The notes under the pieces are model-generated. The model did not search any database. It had not been told where the DNA came from and saw only the letters and a program-made list of their open reading frames with translations. Positions 1 to 12,903 of a stretch of DNA of 42,880 nucleotides are shown one piece after another. The first letter of the stretch is position 1. Each line of letters opens with the position of its first letter. The DNA comes from a virus. The position numbers were made by a program, and so were the translations under genes. The stretch is taken from positions 1-42,880 of the IMG/VR virus record IMGVR_UViG_3300050014_000111; one strand, 5' to 3'.

Positions 1-239
1 CCACAGGGAACCCCACCAGAAGCGGCAGGATGCCCCAGGTTGGACGGACGGTCGCAGTGGACAAGAGTATCATCCCGCTAGGTTCCATTATCGTGGTAGA
101 CGGCCACAGGTACGTGGCAGAGGATACCGGCGGGGCGATCCAGGGGAACAGGTTGGACCTGTTCGTCGCATCCAGGGGCGAGGCGATCTCGTTCGGACGG
201 CAACAGGTGAAGGTGGTTGTTGAGAATGAAGGTAGGTAG
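1..239 (+). CDS. 3D-domain cell-wall protein, 5' end missing
   Basis: The frame is open from base 3 and stops at TAG 237-239; the start lies left of the window. About 78 residues are visible and match the 3D domain, named for three conserved Asp residues, of Gram-positive cell-wall proteins and MltA-like lytic transglycosylases. All three Asp are visible, in TVAVDKSIIPLG, EDTGGAIQGNR and LDLF, followed by a closing GRQQVKVVV strand. Family knowledge suggests a peptidoglycan-active double-psi barrel. Its place beside early genes rather than the lysis genes is unusual but not unique for Firmicute phages. The last bases overlap the methyltransferase start at 226, implying coupled translation. 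Confidence 0.8.
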   Translation, partial: TGNPTRSGRMPQVGRTVAVDKSIIPLGSIIVVDGHRYVAEDTGGAIQGNRLDLFVASRGEAISFGRQQVKVVVENEGR

Positions 240-1179
240 TCTCTTCTCAGGTATCGGTGGCTTCGATCTTGGCCTCGAACGTGCCGGGATGCAGATAGCA
301 TGGCAGGTAGAGATAGACCCCTTCTGTTGCAAGATATTGGAGAAACATTGGCCGGGAGTGAAAAGGTATGGCGACATCAAAGAAGTCAAAGGAACCGAAC
401 TTGAACCAGTTGACCTTATTTGCGGCGGACCACCCTGTCAGCCGGTATCCTGTGCAGGGAAGCGAAGAGGCGATAAGGATGACCGTTGGCTCTGGCCTGA
501 AGCTCTGCGCCTTGTTGAAGAAATCCACCCCACTTGGTGTCTTTTCGAGAATCCTCCTGGGTTCCTCAGTATGGGCTTCGACGAAACGGTATCTCACCTG
601 GAAGTTGAAGGCTACGAAGTCGGGGCGTTCAATATTCCAGCTTGCGGTGTCGATGCCCCGCAACTGCGATACCGAATCTGGATTGTGGCCTACTCCGAGA
701 GCAGGCAAGACAACGGACGAGAACAAGGATACTTGGCTAAAACGGCAGCGAGAAGGGAAGGTATCAACCCCGCCGTTAACATTGGCCGTGAAATTATGGC
801 CGACACCACGGGCAGGGGATGGAATGACACACCCCCTCAGGAACCCGGAGAACATCAAGGGGAATGGCAGAGGCCGACTGGAGGACGTGGTAGCTTTGTG
901 GCCGACTCCGAGAGTGTGTGCCGGCAAAGGGAACCGGGGCGGTCTCAATCGATCAGATTATTACCGGATAATGAAACGTCCGAAAACAGGCGGTCAGAGG
1001 GGAAAGAGAGATCGGGAGATTGTCGATGCTGGAGTCCTGAACCCGCAATTTGTAGAGTGGCTCCAAGGCTATCCAATCATGTGGACAGACTTAGAGCCCT
1101 CGGAAACGCCGTAGTACCGCAGATACCGGAGATACTAGGACGGATGATCATGGAAGAGGAGGCGCAAGGATGTTCATAG
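226..1179 (+). CDS. DNA (cytosine-5) methyltransferase
   Basis: A 317-residue protein that transfers a methyl group from SAM to cytosine C5 in DNA. Motif I is LFSGIGGFDLGLERAG (residues 6-21), motif IV is GGPPCQP with nucleophile Cys71, motif VI is ENPPG (108-112, where ENV is commoner), motif VIII is QLRYR (146-150), and motif X is RALGNAVVPQ near the C-terminus. Residues of about 155-285 form a low-complexity, target-recognition-like region with VAYSESR, MADTTGR and VADSESV. ATG 226 is chosen because motif I begins five residues later; an upstream TTG at 217 is less likely. It probably protects phage DNA from host restriction. A second long frame is nested inside it (368-1114). Confidence 0.93.
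   Translation: MKVGSLFSGIGGFDLGLERAGMQIAWQVEIDPFCCKILEKHWPGVKRYGDIKEVKGTELEPVDLICGGPPCQPVSCAGKRRGDKDDRWLWPEALRLVEEIHPTWCLFENPPGFLSMGFDETVSHLEVEGYEVGAFNIPACGVDAPQLRYRIWIVAYSESRQDNGREQGYLAKTAARREGINPAVNIGREIMADTTGRGWNDTPPQEPGEHQGEWQRPTGGRGSFVADSESVCRQREPGRSQSIRLLPDNETSENRRSEGKERSGDCRCWSPEPAICRVAPRLSNHVDRLRALGNAVVPQIPEILGRMIMEEEAQGCS
368..1114 (+). CDS. LWPTP-type protein overprinted inside the methyltransferase gene
   Basis: A 248-codon frame lies wholly inside the C5-methyltransferase gene in another forward frame. It starts at ATG 368, just after GAAAAGG. The translation is not random-looking: it carries three LWPTPR motifs (683-700, 794-811, 896-913) and ends with LNPQFVEWLQGYPIMWTD. I recognise this pattern (LWPTP repeats, then LNPxWVEWLMGFPxGWT) from proteins annotated beside phage and bacterial cytosine methyltransferases; their function is unknown to me. 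Each LWPTPR lies exactly over a VAYSES, MADTTG or VADSES motif of the other frame. Against it: the antisense strand is also open over 247-948, so openness alone proves little. Confidence 0.55.
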   Translation: MATSKKSKEPNLNQLTLFAADHPVSRYPVQGSEEAIRMTVGSGLKLCALLKKSTPLGVFSRILLGSSVWASTKRYLTWKLKATKSGRSIFQLAVSMPRNCDTESGLWPTPRAGKTTDENKDTWLKRQREGKVSTPPLTLAVKLWPTPRAGDGMTHPLRNPENIKGNGRGRLEDVVALWPTPRVCAGKGNRGGLNRSDYYRIMKRPKTGGQRGKRDREIVDAGVLNPQFVEWLQGYPIMWTDLEPSETP

Positions 1180-3946: not shown

Positions 3947-4101
3947 TTAAAACGATTTGCCCCTGCGGTTCATCGACGATCACAGTCCGTCACTGCGGCC
4001 AGCCTGTCAAGCTCTGTACGCATTGCGGCAGATTACTCCAGATCGACTACACGCGCGGCACGGCCCGCGTTCTCTGGCAGCCGAGAAGGAGGACCGGATG
4101 A
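3943..4101 (+). CDS. Small zinc-ribbon protein
   Basis: GTG 3943 overlaps the TGA of the helicase loader; an alternative TTG is at 3931. The roughly 52-residue product has CPC and CTHC knuckles (ICPCGSS ... LCTHCGRLLQ), a simple zinc ribbon. It ends in an ATGA overlap with the adenine/N4 methyltransferase. Small zinc ribbons of this kind are common in phage replication operons; function unknown. Confidence 0.6.
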   Translation: MIKTICPCGSSTITVRHCGQPVKLCTHCGRLLQIDYTRGTARVLWQPRRRTG

Positions 4102-4859
4102 TGGATCGCTGGCTGAACAAAGTAATATGCGGAGACGCGCTGGAGCTTTTACCACAACTGCCGGATAAGTGTGTCGATCTGGTGCTGACTGATCCGCCGT
4201 TCGGCCACAAAAACAACGATGGCGATCTTATTTCGATGCGGGAGAAGGCTTTAGGGCATGGTGAACCCGGCGAAGCGCGGCCAATAGCCAACGACGGCCC
4301 CGAAGCAAATGACATCTTCAAGGCGTGTCTGCCCGAATGGAATAGACTACTCAGACACGGAGGCTGCTGCTGCTGCTGCTGCTGCGGCGGCGGACCAGAT
4401 CCGATGTTTGCCCGCTGGAGCCTCTGGATGGATGAGGTATTTGACTTCAAGCAGATGGTTGTCTGGGATAAGGGGCCAATGGGTATGGGCTGGCATTACC
4501 GCAGGAGCTACGAAACTATTCTGGTCGCCCAGAAACGTGGCGATTCCTGCAATTGGTATGATGAGACGAACAAAATCGAGAACATCATCCGGCCTACCCA
4601 CAAGATGATCCGCAAAATTATTCCTCAAGCGAACCAGCACCCTACAGTCAAGCCTGTCCAACTCATGGAGCATTTTATCAAACTGCATACGAAGCCAGGG
4701 GATACCGTACTCGACCCGTTTTTAGGATCAGGCACCACAGCGGTTGCAGCGATCAATACAGGCAGGAATTACATCGGTTTTGAAATTGACCAATATTGGG
4801 TTGATTATGCCACCAAGCGCATCGCGCAGGAGACAGCCCAAGAGAGGATGTTCGTATGA
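4098..4859 (+). CDS. DNA adenine-N6 / cytosine-N4 methyltransferase (beta class)
   Basis: ATG 4098 follows AAGGAGGACC. The 253-residue enzyme has the catalytic motif IV TDPPFG early (about residues 31-36) and the SAM-binding motif I LDPFLGSGTT late, followed by GRNYIGFEIDQYWVDYA. This order marks the beta class of amino-methyltransferases. HPTVKPVQLMEHF before motif I is also typical. It modifies an exocyclic amino group in phage DNA, probably against host restriction. A run of seven Cys residues (TGC repeat, 4365-4385) followed by Gly residues lies in the middle. It is coupled by ATGA to the VRR-NUC gene. Confidence 0.92.
   Translation: MMDRWLNKVICGDALELLPQLPDKCVDLVLTDPPFGHKNNDGDLISMREKALGHGEPGEARPIANDGPEANDIFKACLPEWNRLLRHGGCCCCCCCGGGPDPMFARWSLWMDEVFDFKQMVVWDKGPMGMGWHYRRSYETILVAQKRGDSCNWYDETNKIENIIRPTHKMIRKIIPQANQHPTVKPVQLMEHFIKLHTKPGDTVLDPFLGSGTTAVAAINTGRNYIGFEIDQYWVDYATKRIAQETAQERMFV
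4365..4385 (+). repeat. Trinucleotide repeat (TGC)7 encoding seven cysteines
   Basis: Seven perfect TGC codons between GGA-GGC and GGC-GGC-GGA in the adenine/N4 methyltransferase. They give a GG-Cys7-GGG loop. Expansion or loss of units would stay in frame. Confidence 0.95.
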
Positions 4860-8963: not shown

Positions 8964-9322
8964 AAAAACGATGCGACCTATGCAAACATATCGGAATCGA
9001 TTGTGGCCCAACAATATGCAATGACGATGGAACAGTAAACAAAAGACGCTACCGAGAATGTGAGAACCATAGCGCGTGGGAACCTATGAGCAATATTAAG
9101 CGCATCTGCCCAGACAATAAGACCGCTTTGATTAAGTGGATCGAAGATAACTTCCACAACATCGATCAGTTTGTTTTTGTCGCCCGCATGAGTAATAGCG
9201 TCACCACGACGATCTATGACTGCTTTACCTATTATGACTCAGTTGCCATGACTGGGATCGCCCAGAACGTCATGCACGAGTTGGAGTACGATGATGCGTT
9301 TATCTGCAAGGAGAGAGAATGA
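8960..9322 (+). CDS. Unknown protein within the sugar cassette (120 aa)
   Basis: ATG 8960 overlaps the preceding TGA, and the stop overlaps the PseB-like start. The N-terminus has CDLCKHIGIDCGPTIC and a later CENH, suggesting a zinc-binding or disulfide-rich module; the remainder is alpha/beta with no motif that I know. The strict coupling implies production together with the glycan enzymes, but it may be a passenger gene. Confidence 0.65.
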   Translation: MKKRCDLCKHIGIDCGPTICNDDGTVNKRRYRECENHSAWEPMSNIKRICPDNKTALIKWIEDNFHNIDQFVFVARMSNSVTTTIYDCFTYYDSVAMTGIAQNVMHELEYDDAFICKERE

Positions 9323-10248
9323 ACATACTCATCACCGGGGGAACGGGATCATTTGGCAGATTTTTCACCAAATACATACTGACGCAGAATCCGGCCCGCG
9401 TGGTCGTGTTCTCCCGGGACGAATTAAAACAGTACGAGATGCAGCAGGAGATCCAGGACGAGCGGCTGAGATTCTTCATCGGCGACATAAGAGACAAGGA
9501 AAGACTGCTCGCTGCGTTCAGGGGTGTCGATTACGTCATCCACGCGGCCGCCATGAAGCAAGTAGAGTCTTGCGAGTACAATCCCTTCGAAGCCGTAAAG
9601 ACAAACGTCCTGGGAGCGCAGAACATCATAGAGGCGGCGATAGAATGCAAAGTCAAGAAAGTGATCGCGTTGAGCACGGACAAAGCCTGCGCCCCTGTGA
9701 ATACATACGGCAAGTCAAAAGCCCTAATGGAATCTCTTTTCGTTGCCGGGAACAATTATGCTGGTTCGATGCAGACCCGTTTTGCTGTTGCACGCTATGG
9801 CAACGTAGTCTCTTCGCGGGGGTCTGTAATTCCCTTGTTCTTGAAGCAGCGGGAGACCGGAACGATCACCTTGACGTCGGAAAGAATGACGCGGTTCTGG
9901 ATCGCACTGGATGAGGCTGTAAGATTTGTCCACGCCTCTCTTCTCCGTATGCACGGCGGGGAGATCTTTGTCCCGAAGATACCGAGCATGAAGATAACGG
10001 ATCTCGCTAAAGCAATCGCTCCTGGATGCAAAGTAAAAGTGACAGGCATTCGACCGGGCGAGAAGCTCCACGAGACCCTGATCACCGAGGACGAGGCAAG
10101 ACACACCATCGAGGACGAAGGGTACATCATCCTTCCTGAATACCCCGAATGGGGCAGGCACTACGATAAACCGATGGGAGGCTATGAACTGTCGAGCGAT
10201 AAAAATAAAGAATGGCTGACAGTGAAAGACATGGAGGGAAAATGTTAG
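9319..10248 (+). CDS. pseB: PseB-like UDP-N-acetylglucosamine 4,6-dehydratase
   Basis: A 309-residue short-chain dehydrogenase/reductase of the FlaA1/PseB type. NAD(P)-binding TGGTGSFG is at residues 6-13 and FIGDIRD follows the second strand. Catalytic STDKA (Asp121, Lys122) and the Tyr130-Lys134 pair in NTYGKSK match inverting 4,6-dehydratases, which make the UDP-4-keto-6-deoxy sugar that starts pseudaminic acid synthesis. IRPGEKLHE near residue 250 is a further family signature. It is embedded in a coupled operon with an acetyltransferase, a synthase and a cytidylyltransferase. Confidence 0.9.
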   Translation: MNILITGGTGSFGRFFTKYILTQNPARVVVFSRDELKQYEMQQEIQDERLRFFIGDIRDKERLLAAFRGVDYVIHAAAMKQVESCEYNPFEAVKTNVLGAQNIIEAAIECKVKKVIALSTDKACAPVNTYGKSKALMESLFVAGNNYAGSMQTRFAVARYGNVVSSRGSVIPLFLKQRETGTITLTSERMTRFWIALDEAVRFVHASLLRMHGGEIFVPKIPSMKITDLAKAIAPGCKVKVTGIRPGEKLHETLITEDEARHTIEDEGYIILPEYPEWGRHYDKPMGGYELSSDKNKEWLTVKDMEGKC

Positions 10249-11042
10249 TTTTAGGTACGGTCCAGCTCGGTATGCCCTATGGTTGCAACAACAAGACCGG
10301 CCAGCCCTCGCGCAAGGAAGCACTTGAAATGCTGGCCTACGCCAAAGAAAGGATTGACTGGTTCGACACCGCCGAGGCATACGGCAGCGAAGAGATCCTT
10401 GGCGAGTCCGGTATGCAGGGGAAGAAGGTCATCACGAAGCTATTGTCCAATTGTCTGGATGGAGTCAGCGACGTAAAAACGGCTGTCAGGGAACATCTCG
10501 AAGGCTCGCTCAAGAGGTTGAAGCTGGATCAGGTCGAGGGGTATCTGTTGCACACTCCGAGATATGCAAGTGACCATGAAATATACGAAGCGATGTTTAC
10601 TGCCAGAGAAGCAGGACTGACTAAAAATATAGGTGTAAGCGTTTACGGTACAGACGAAGCACTACACACAATGAGGATGGCTTATAATTTTGTTCAATTC
10701 CCGTTTGGTGTTTTAGATCAGCGAATGAAAGAAATACCCGATTGGTACAAAGGTGATATTAAGGAATTTGCTCGCGCTCCCTTTACTCAGGGCGCAGTGT
10801 TCACACAGTTTCCGCCGGCTGTTCAGTTTAGAGAACTCTGCCGGCAGTACGGAGCAACGCCCGTCCAAGGCGCTCTAGGCTATGCTTTGTCAAACTACGA
10901 CAACGTGGTATTTGGCTGCGAGACAATGAAACAACTTGAAGAGGACCTGGCAGAGATACCGAAGAACCCGAAGCTCTACAAACGGATCAGGAAGGAGCTA
11001 GGACACTGCGATCTAATGTTCAATTCACTATGGGCAAAGTAG
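10242..11042 (+). CDS. Aldo/keto reductase of glycan cassette
   Basis: A 266-residue TIM-barrel reductase. The catalytic tetrad of aldo/keto reductases is complete: Asp42 and Tyr47 in FDTAEAYGSEE, Lys66 in VITKLL and His104 in YLLHTP. Relatives are often found in clostridial and bacillar flagellar glycosylation and spore-coat polysaccharide clusters next to SpsF-like and class III aminotransferase genes; the exact reaction there is not known to me. Start ATG 10242 follows GGAGGG and overlaps the PseB stop by seven bases. Confidence 0.87.
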   Translation: MLVLGTVQLGMPYGCNNKTGQPSRKEALEMLAYAKERIDWFDTAEAYGSEEILGESGMQGKKVITKLLSNCLDGVSDVKTAVREHLEGSLKRLKLDQVEGYLLHTPRYASDHEIYEAMFTAREAGLTKNIGVSVYGTDEALHTMRMAYNFVQFPFGVLDQRMKEIPDWYKGDIKEFARAPFTQGAVFTQFPPAVQFRELCRQYGATPVQGALGYALSNYDNVVFGCETMKQLEEDLAEIPKNPKLYKRIRKELGHCDLMFNSLWAK

Positions 11043-11752
11043 TAGCGATTATACAGGCGCGCATGGGTTCGACGAGATTACCCGGCAAGGTTCTTCTCCC
11101 GCTCGGTGGCAAGCCGATGATCGTCCAGATGGTGGAGCGAGTGAAGAGAAGCGCGCTGGTGGATGAAGTGTGGGTGGCGATACCGATACCCGACAGGCCG
11201 ACAGAACTTTGCGACGTGTTGGTTGACAACGGTATTGCCTGTATGTGTGGCAGCGAGGAAGATGTCTTGGATAGATATTATCATGTTGCAAATCTTGTTG
11301 GAGCCGATCATATCGTCCGCCTTACCGCCGACTGCCCGTTGATTGACCCGGCGATAATTGATATGGTCGTTTGGGCTCATATCCATGGAGGGTATAGCTA
11401 TACAAGCAATGTTCATCCTCCAATGTTTCCTGATGGCATGGACGTAGAAGTTATGGACATGAACGCTTTAGACCTCGCTCAACACAATGCTGCATCATCG
11501 CTTGACCGCGAACACGTCACGAGATGGATTCATCGAGAACTGAAACGGCAGGTTAATGTTCCGGGAATTGATGACCACTCCGACATCCGTCTCACTGTTG
11601 ATTACATCGAAGATTATCAGGCAGTAAGAACAATATGGGATGCCATGCCGGAGAACTTTACCCTGTTTCATATTCTTCGCTATCTGAGAGAGCATCCTGA
11701 AGTGAGGGCAATTAACCAGAAATACAAAAGAAATACCAAGGAGGGCGCATGA
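11030..11752 (+). CDS. spsF: SpsF-like CMP-sugar cytidylyltransferase
   Basis: A 240-residue nucleotidyltransferase of the CMP-KDO/CMP-NeuAc synthetase superfamily, SpsF branch. The N-terminal nucleotide loop reads IIQARMGSTRLPGK (about residues 7-20), followed by LGGKPMI, and the metal-binding LTADCPLID. LDREHVTRWIH matches the SpsF/PseF substrate region. It should activate the nonulosonic acid as a CMP-sugar for transfer. The start overlaps the reductase end by 13 bases, and the stop overlaps the aminotransferase start (ATGA). Confidence 0.9.
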   Translation: MGKVVAIIQARMGSTRLPGKVLLPLGGKPMIVQMVERVKRSALVDEVWVAIPIPDRPTELCDVLVDNGIACMCGSEEDVLDRYYHVANLVGADHIVRLTADCPLIDPAIIDMVVWAHIHGGYSYTSNVHPPMFPDGMDVEVMDMNALDLAQHNAASSLDREHVTRWIHRELKRQVNVPGIDDHSDIRLTVDYIEDYQAVRTIWDAMPENFTLFHILRYLREHPEVRAINQKYKRNTKEGA

Positions 11753-12903
11753 GGATACCTGGAACAACCGGGACGTTCAGCAAGGGACCCACTCAGTGGC
11801 CGGGAGTCGGCAAAGCAGAGAGAGGTAAAGGTTGCAAACTATGGATTGACGGCAAGGAATACATCGATCTCGTCATGGGCTTGACGCCTGTCATATTGGG
11901 CTACTGCAACGAAGAGGTTGACGACGCGGTGAAGAGGCAGATCGACAAGGGTTCAATCTTCACCCTGCCGTCAGAGCTTGAAGAGATCGTCGCTGAAAGA
12001 ATTTGTCAGATGGTGCCCAACGCGGAGATGGTCCGCTTCGGCAAGAACGGTTCGGACGCAACCAGCGGCGCGGTGAGACTGGCGAGAGCGATCACGGGAA
12101 GGGACCACATCGCCCAGTGTGGCTACCACGGCTGGCAGGACTGGAGCATAGGCGTAGCGGGGCGAAATCTCGGCGTACCGTCCAGAGTATCAGAATTGAC
12201 GCACCCCTTCAAATACAACAACCTCGCAAGCCTGGAGGCCATCTTCGATCTATACCCTAACCAGATCGCTTGCGTGATCATGGAGCCTGTCAATAAAGAG
12301 GAACCGAAGGACGATTTCCTGAACGCCGTCAAGAATCTCTGCCACAAGAACAACGCCCTGTTCATCCTTGATGAAGTAGTTACCGGTTTCCGCATCGCCA
12401 AGGGGGGCGCGCAGGAGTGCTATGGAGTGGACGCCGACCTCGTGTGTCTCGGTAAAGCTTTGGCCAACGGCTATCCTCTGTCTGCTATCGCTGGCCGTAA
12501 AGAGTATATGGAGTATATGACCAGGGTTCATTACTCATTCACCTTCTCAGGGGACTGCATCGCGCTTGCGGCTGCGGAAAAGACGTTGGAGATAATCGAA
12601 AGAGATAACGTGCCTGGTATGCTCAAAAATATAGGCCATGAAATTATGAGAGATGTTGATCTTAGATTTGGTGGTAACGAAGCGTGGCCACATATTATCT
12701 TCGATACCCCGCAAGAAAGGCAGTTGTTCCGGCAATCATGTTACGAAACGCATCTTTTGGTGATGGATACTATAAACCTTTGTTATGCAACTCGGTGCGT
12801 AAATACTTTAGCTATGCTTGGCCGTGCAATTACGCATATGTCTGCCATTGAAGAACGGCCTGATAAGCCGTGGCCGGTTCCCTCGTTCCAGGTGAGAGCA
12901 TGA
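11749..12903 (+). CDS. Class III PLP aminotransferase, HemL-like
   Basis: A 384-residue fold-type I enzyme resembling glutamate-1-semialdehyde aminomutase. Key elements are GSDATSGAVRLARA (phosphate loop), GYHGWQDW, FILDEVVTGFR (Asp to the pyridine nitrogen) and LGKALANGYPLSAIAG with the PLP Lys. It is somewhat shorter than HemL (about 430). In NulO-type glycan islands such HemL-like enzymes accompany SpsF and an aldo/keto reductase and probably aminate a keto-sugar or its side chain. No separate PseC-type aminotransferase is present, so it may take that role. Coupled on both sides by ATGA. Confidence 0.9.
   Translation: MRIPGTTGTFSKGPTQWPGVGKAERGKGCKLWIDGKEYIDLVMGLTPVILGYCNEEVDDAVKRQIDKGSIFTLPSELEEIVAERICQMVPNAEMVRFGKNGSDATSGAVRLARAITGRDHIAQCGYHGWQDWSIGVAGRNLGVPSRVSELTHPFKYNNLASLEAIFDLYPNQIACVIMEPVNKEEPKDDFLNAVKNLCHKNNALFILDEVVTGFRIAKGGAQECYGVDADLVCLGKALANGYPLSAIAGRKEYMEYMTRVHYSFTFSGDCIALAAAEKTLEIIERDNVPGMLKNIGHEIMRDVDLRFGGNEAWPHIIFDTPQERQLFRQSCYETHLLVMDTINLCYATRCVNTLAMLGRAITHMSAIEERPDKPWPVPSFQVRA

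Follow-up and report, generated by a model that had tools for sequence, protein, structure and literature searches.

Does the DNA at 226-1179 of the window (the whole stretch analysed, a 42.9 kb virus record of 42,880 nucleotides with the tailed-phage genes terminase, portal, helicase loader and a second DNA methyltransferase) encode one protein or two, and if two, are they parts of one enzyme? Frame 0 encodes a C5-cytosine methyltransferase (alpha, for which a TTG at 217 is an alternative start, giving 217-1179), and within it lies a second open frame, shifted by +1, for a protein of 248 residues (beta; Table 1). The initial annotation had observed that LWPTPR occurs three times in the nested frame, exactly over ADSES motifs of the methylase, and that LNPQFVEWLQGYP lies over the conserved stretch before motif X. 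We confirmed these positions in the +1 frame: LWPTPR occupies 683-700, 794-811 and 896-913, over the frame-0 stretches IVAYSES, IMADTTG and FVADSES, and LNPQFVEWLQGYP overlies the frame-0 PEPAICRVAPRLSN, directly upstream of motif X. While the overlay holds at all three sites, the literal ADSES is found in just one of them; the frame-0 "ADSES repeats" are what TGG-CCG-ACT-CCG-AGx, which encodes WPTPR, gives when read one base off.

Table 1. Features of the nested gene pair in the window.
Feature	Position	Strand	Basis
Alpha: C5-cytosine methyltransferase, motifs I-VIII and X	226..1179	+	Pfam PF00145, phrog_363, M.HaeIII/M.HhaI sequence and fold
GGGAG, Shine-Dalgarno-like, 9 nt before beta ATG	354..358	+	sequence
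Beta: nested +1 gene, 248 aa, ATG start	368..1114	+	phrog_1008, stop depletion, codon positions
Beta N-terminal part, over alpha motifs IV-VIII	368..682	+	consensus LTLF..D..AS..PGSEEAR.MTV.SG...LTWK
Beta WPTP module 1	686..796	+	WPTP pattern; relatives in L308, L319
Beta WPTP module 2	797..898	+	WPTP pattern; weaker relatives in other loci
Beta WPTP module 3	899..1036	+	WPTP pattern; one weak relative, in L284
Motif-IX-like LNPQFVEWLQGYP of beta	1037..1075	+	consensus; same frame as motif X in the split relatives
Alpha residues 165-283, predicted disordered linker (frame 0)	718..1074	+	AlphaFold2
Alpha motif X (RALGNAVVP)	1093..1119	+	alignment; high-pLDDT helices

Alpha matches Pfam PF00145 over residues 1-163 (2.6e-41) and phrog_363 (1.9e-74), carries motifs I-VIII including the PCQ and ENV signatures, and matches M.HaeIII and M.HhaI by both sequence and fold. 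AlphaFold2 models most of residues 1-160 and the motif X helices of alpha with confidence; residues 165-283 have pLDDT values mostly below 50 and are without secondary structure. In single-chain enzymes motif IX is located in the small domain together with the recognition region. A motif IX resembling RRLTPRECFRLQGFPD is present in all five single-chain phage C5 enzymes compared, the +1 frames of which hold 9-20 stops, and a recognisable motif IX was found in none of 344 frame-0 proteins. Because alpha is without motif IX and residues 165-283 are predicted to be disordered, it does not unite motif IX with an ordered recognition region in one chain, and it appears to be the catalytic subunit of a C5 enzyme, not a complete single-chain enzyme.

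Beta matches phrog_1008 (1.1e-31), a family that PHROGs labels "DNA methyltransferase". It has no Pfam match, a profile search against the PDB returned nothing, and a fold search with a low-confidence model of beta alone (pLDDT 62.7) gave no match. At the place of motif IX the nested frame carries LNPxWVEWLMGFPxGW, of which LNPxWVEWLMGFP is nearly invariant in 316 sequences; hhalign aligned this stretch to motif IX at the correct place with weak significance. The identity of the motif is better supported by natural splits than by this weak profile match. Four relatives, L113 (= L188), L161, L197 and the mycophage Refuge, have a frame 0 that terminates beyond motif VIII and thereafter contains 4-25 stops. 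Their nested frame stays open across modules of the WPTP or LPTP kind and across the motif-IX-like stretch, and it includes motif X in frame; the C-terminal stretch in L161 and L197 matches the DNA methyltransferase families phrog_116 and phrog_363. Where frame 0 is interrupted, beta is thus retained and is joined to motif X. Going beyond what the initial annotation proposed, the partner would additionally supply the motif IX that is missing from alpha.

It was also conceivable that the nested protein is independent of the enzyme, for example a regulator or an anti-restriction factor that merely shares the locus. A small free-standing ORF of 155 codons with WPTP and LNP..MMGFP motifs, which closely follows a nested pair on a plasmid of Paenibacillus bovis (L013:2453-2917, WP_087071452.1) and is without the usual beta N-terminus, speaks for such independence, although it is perhaps a spare specificity subunit. 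When LWPTP proteins without an overlapping methylase were sought, as the initial annotation had suggested, this was the only free-standing beta gene found. The matches obtained from 19 genomes around a Paenibacillus lay within longer nested-type frames, with one further match that was interrupted. Given that alpha has neither motif IX nor an ordered recognition region, that the split betas carry motif X, and that beta accompanies alpha in 261 of 261 loci, we consider independence unlikely. Nothing was found in support of a separate anti-restriction subunit, the other role initially suggested for the partner, but the whole enzyme may serve anti-restriction.

A single chain produced by ribosomal frameshifting from alpha (motifs I-VIII) into the +1 frame (recognition, motif IX) would fit the split relatives, as a +1 shift there would fuse motifs I-VIII to the recognition part and to motifs IX and X. 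The window has motif X in frame 0, however, so that two shifts would be required, and the nested gene is conserved across its entire N-terminus, which would be needless for a shift near motif VIII. The nested gene also has its own start with a Shine-Dalgarno-like site; such a site precedes the nested start in 197 of 222 homologues (89%) compared with 76 of 222 controls, a count based on the best-scoring candidate start per homologue, which favours real sites somewhat, with controls allowed any of an equal number of candidates. The mRNA structure at the beta start is ordinary. Taken together these observations make frameshifting very unlikely.

That the nested frame is maintained as a gene is most directly seen from its stops. 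Homologues were gathered by the nested protein and, separately, by the frame-0 protein alone, which avoids circularity, and expected stops were obtained from synonymous shuffles that preserve the methylase protein and its codon usage. Shuffling the window methylase in this way gave a mean of 8.6 stops in the +1 frame, and none of 200 shuffles was open. The nested gene was present in the +1 frame at all 77 analysable loci chosen by the frame-0 protein, and in 61 non-redundant, divergent viral loci so chosen (13,558 codons) the interval from motif IV to motif X contained 9 stops in the +1 frame where 321 were expected, with 57 loci fully open against 1.03 expected; stops in the +2 frame of the same interval were at expectation (786 vs 817). 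All nine +1 stops, confined to four of the loci, fall beyond the ..GWT(D) end of the nested gene. Over the nested region itself there were no +1 stops against 385 expected, a zero that is partly by construction since the region was defined as the open nested match, and the other frames were at or near expectation. Homologues of the nested protein occur in phages, prophages and the genomes of many bacterial phyla. The case named at the outset as evidence against two genes, nested stops beside an intact methylase, was looked for and not found, and no homologue examined had lost the nested frame while keeping this type of methylase. The open +1 frame is not due to chance.

Which frame is selected, and where, could be read from codon positions in 219 closer pairs that were not chosen by nested similarity. 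Upstream of the nested gene the change rates at methylase positions 1/2/3 are.15/.11/.43, with change at methylase third positions, and downstream of it this pattern is restored (.23/.18/.46). In the overlap with motifs IV-VIII they are.13/.07/.21, the third-position rate being halved. In the WPTP zone (.38/.26/.31) and at motif IX (.20/.10/.18) changes accumulate at methylase position 1, the third position of the nested codons. Similar modules from different loci, in pairs selected by nested similarity, have an amino acid identity of.65 when read in the nested frame; frame 0 gives.38 and the non-coding +2 frame.37, and changes at nested positions are.30/.24/.52. Both frames are therefore coding and under selection, and from the codon-position rates and module identities together it follows that past motif VIII the nested protein is the main coding sequence, with frame 0 mostly just remaining open until motif X. 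The suggestion that the target-recognition region is constrained in two frames thus holds for the nested frame, but the constraint is unequal, as frame 0 past motif VIII resembles a disordered linker.

The idea that the nested frame is untranslated, being open and conserved only because the overlap spans motifs IV-VIII and X, whose conservation together with codon bias drags the +1 frame along, is hardly credible when synonymous shuffles predict 321-385 stops and 9 or 0 are observed, methylase third positions are slowed and position 1 is the freest, Shine-Dalgarno-like starts precede the nested gene, and natural splits keep the nested frame with frame 0 full of stops. The shuffles and codon positions likewise led us to reject the view that conservation of the methylase yields the nested ORF as a side effect. 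An antisense ORF at 247-948 (233 codons, minus strand) was also considered as a gene and rejected, as the antisense frames of homologues are without comparable stop depletion; it carries LGVGH three times, at the WPTPR sites read in reverse, and is probably incidental.

Between motifs VIII and IX, it is beta and not the catalytic chain that holds several tandem, exchangeable modules. Nested proteins contain 0-6 WPTP-like motifs, mostly 2-4, with a median spacing of 36 residues; module boundaries were set by a simple pattern. Among 1807 pairs of similar modules from different loci, 395 differ in position counted from both ends, and similar modules occur twice within one protein nearly never (1 pair). 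Module 1 of the window, for example, corresponds to module 2 of 2 in L308 (73%) and module 3 of 4 in L319 (62%). Recurrence at different places suggests tandem exchangeable recognition domains. We propose that tandem modules may give several specificities; the two-subunit reading stands independently of this proposal.

Very probably, then, one stretch of DNA encodes both halves of a methylase in overlapping frames, a catalytic half and a sequence-recognising half made of tandem interchangeable modules. We put the probability at roughly 0.85 that the two nested genes specify the subunits of a heterodimeric C5-cytosine DNA methyltransferase from a tailed phage, with beta supplying target recognition and motif IX. 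Alpha would contribute motifs I-VIII, for cofactor binding and catalysis, together with motif X at its C-terminus, and beta, initiated at its internal ATG from its own Shine-Dalgarno-like site, would provide the parts missing from alpha, the WPTP modules for target recognition and motif IX. The two chains would assemble, probably through the N-terminal part of beta encoded over alpha motifs IV-VIII, so that the modules could contact and read DNA, and the likely role of the enzyme would be to shield phage DNA against host restriction. Selection in both frames, the internal starts and the natural splits give strong support to the existence of two proteins and to the action of the partner as a specificity subunit, as initially envisaged. 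We see about an even chance that, in a large family of phage C5 methylases, sequence specificity is carried by an alternative frame in this way. The nested subunit would then be a string of exchangeable recognition modules of ~25-45 residues, and targets would be changed or added through exchange of DNA that is acceptable in frame 0 as disordered linker.

The architecture has precedent. The small chain of M.EcoHK31I is also encoded inside the large one, in another frame. M.EcoHK31I (sequence accession X82231; PMC6174562) is a natural two-polypeptide C5 methyltransferase for YGGCCR (Lee, Kam and Shaw 1995, as cited in PMC3404938), and PMC3404938 assigns motifs I-VIII and X to the large chain and motif IX to the small one, with the recognition domain located in the large chain by prediction, not experiment. 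The window pair resembles it in that alpha has I-VIII and X without IX, and motif IX falls in the smaller second polypeptide, with a weak profile score; this likeness is one of motif layout. It differs in that codon positions, modules and model here point to recognition by the nested chain, through a variable number of tandem exchangeable modules. A search for M.EcoHK31I via N15-like genes in E. coli found only prophage-like copies (three loci). M.AquI, a two-polypeptide C5 methyltransferase for CYCGRG, is described in PMC3404938 as having a small chain of part of the variable region and motifs IX-X. This is the layout of the four splits, with IX and X in the small chain, whereas the window pair has motif X in alpha, with the beta gene entirely inside that of alpha. 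With the window pair like M.EcoHK31I and its split relatives like M.AquI, the two layouts are therefore linked.

In the Bacillus phage C5 methylases SPR, phi3T, SPbeta and H2, tandem recognition domains give several targets (PMC8936443). Those are likewise phage C5 enzymes with tandem recognition domains, as proposed here, but each is a single chain in one frame, whereas here the modules are in a separate nested protein. Homologous nested ORFs of the Paenibacillus larvae phages Shelly and Lily are annotated "g55 internal gene" and "g62 internal gene", and in Xanthomonas phage PhiXhv-5 both frames are annotated. PHROG 1008 and the Shelly and Lily genes are called hypothetical or "DNA methyltransferase", with no motif IX or recognition role given. 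Judged against the open-licence literature searched, the abundance in phages, recognition from a nested frame and the shuffling of modules look new.

Many phage "orphan" C5 methylases may accordingly be half enzymes annotated as single proteins. In E. coli ECCTRSRTH03 an intact overlapping pair (L350:2056-3225) is annotated by RefSeq/PGAP as two incomplete methyltransferase fragments (pseudogene). If the two-subunit reading is correct, alpha expressed alone would have no activity or the wrong specificity, and a second-frame specificity subunit whose modules can be shuffled would account for the diversification of DNA methylation by phages. As a same-strand overlap it would also be unusually widespread, and the reason for it would be readable, a linker being tolerated in one frame and recognition encoded in the other.

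Several individual records are of separate interest. L004:2787-3824 has a stop and a two-codon insertion within the methylase GGFPCQ motif and an open nested frame; this could be a broken alpha, an assembly error or recoding. L012:1299-2312, from a Bacteroides finegoldii plasmid record, has two early in-frame methylase stops, one of them where relatives carry Trp (LAAEW), and an open nested frame, for which stop recoding or decay is possible. In Edwardsiella phage eiAU (L020:1667-3088) the nested frame continues without a stop into the downstream annotated DNA methyltransferase, forming an open frame of 474 codons. In the window itself, the second DNA methyltransferase (4080-4859) belongs to another PHROG family (phrog_67) and has a DPPFG motif, and nucleotide-sugar epimerase-like and aminotransferase-like genes at 9319-12903 are flanked by the terminase and portal genes, an unusual location for sugar-modifying genes.
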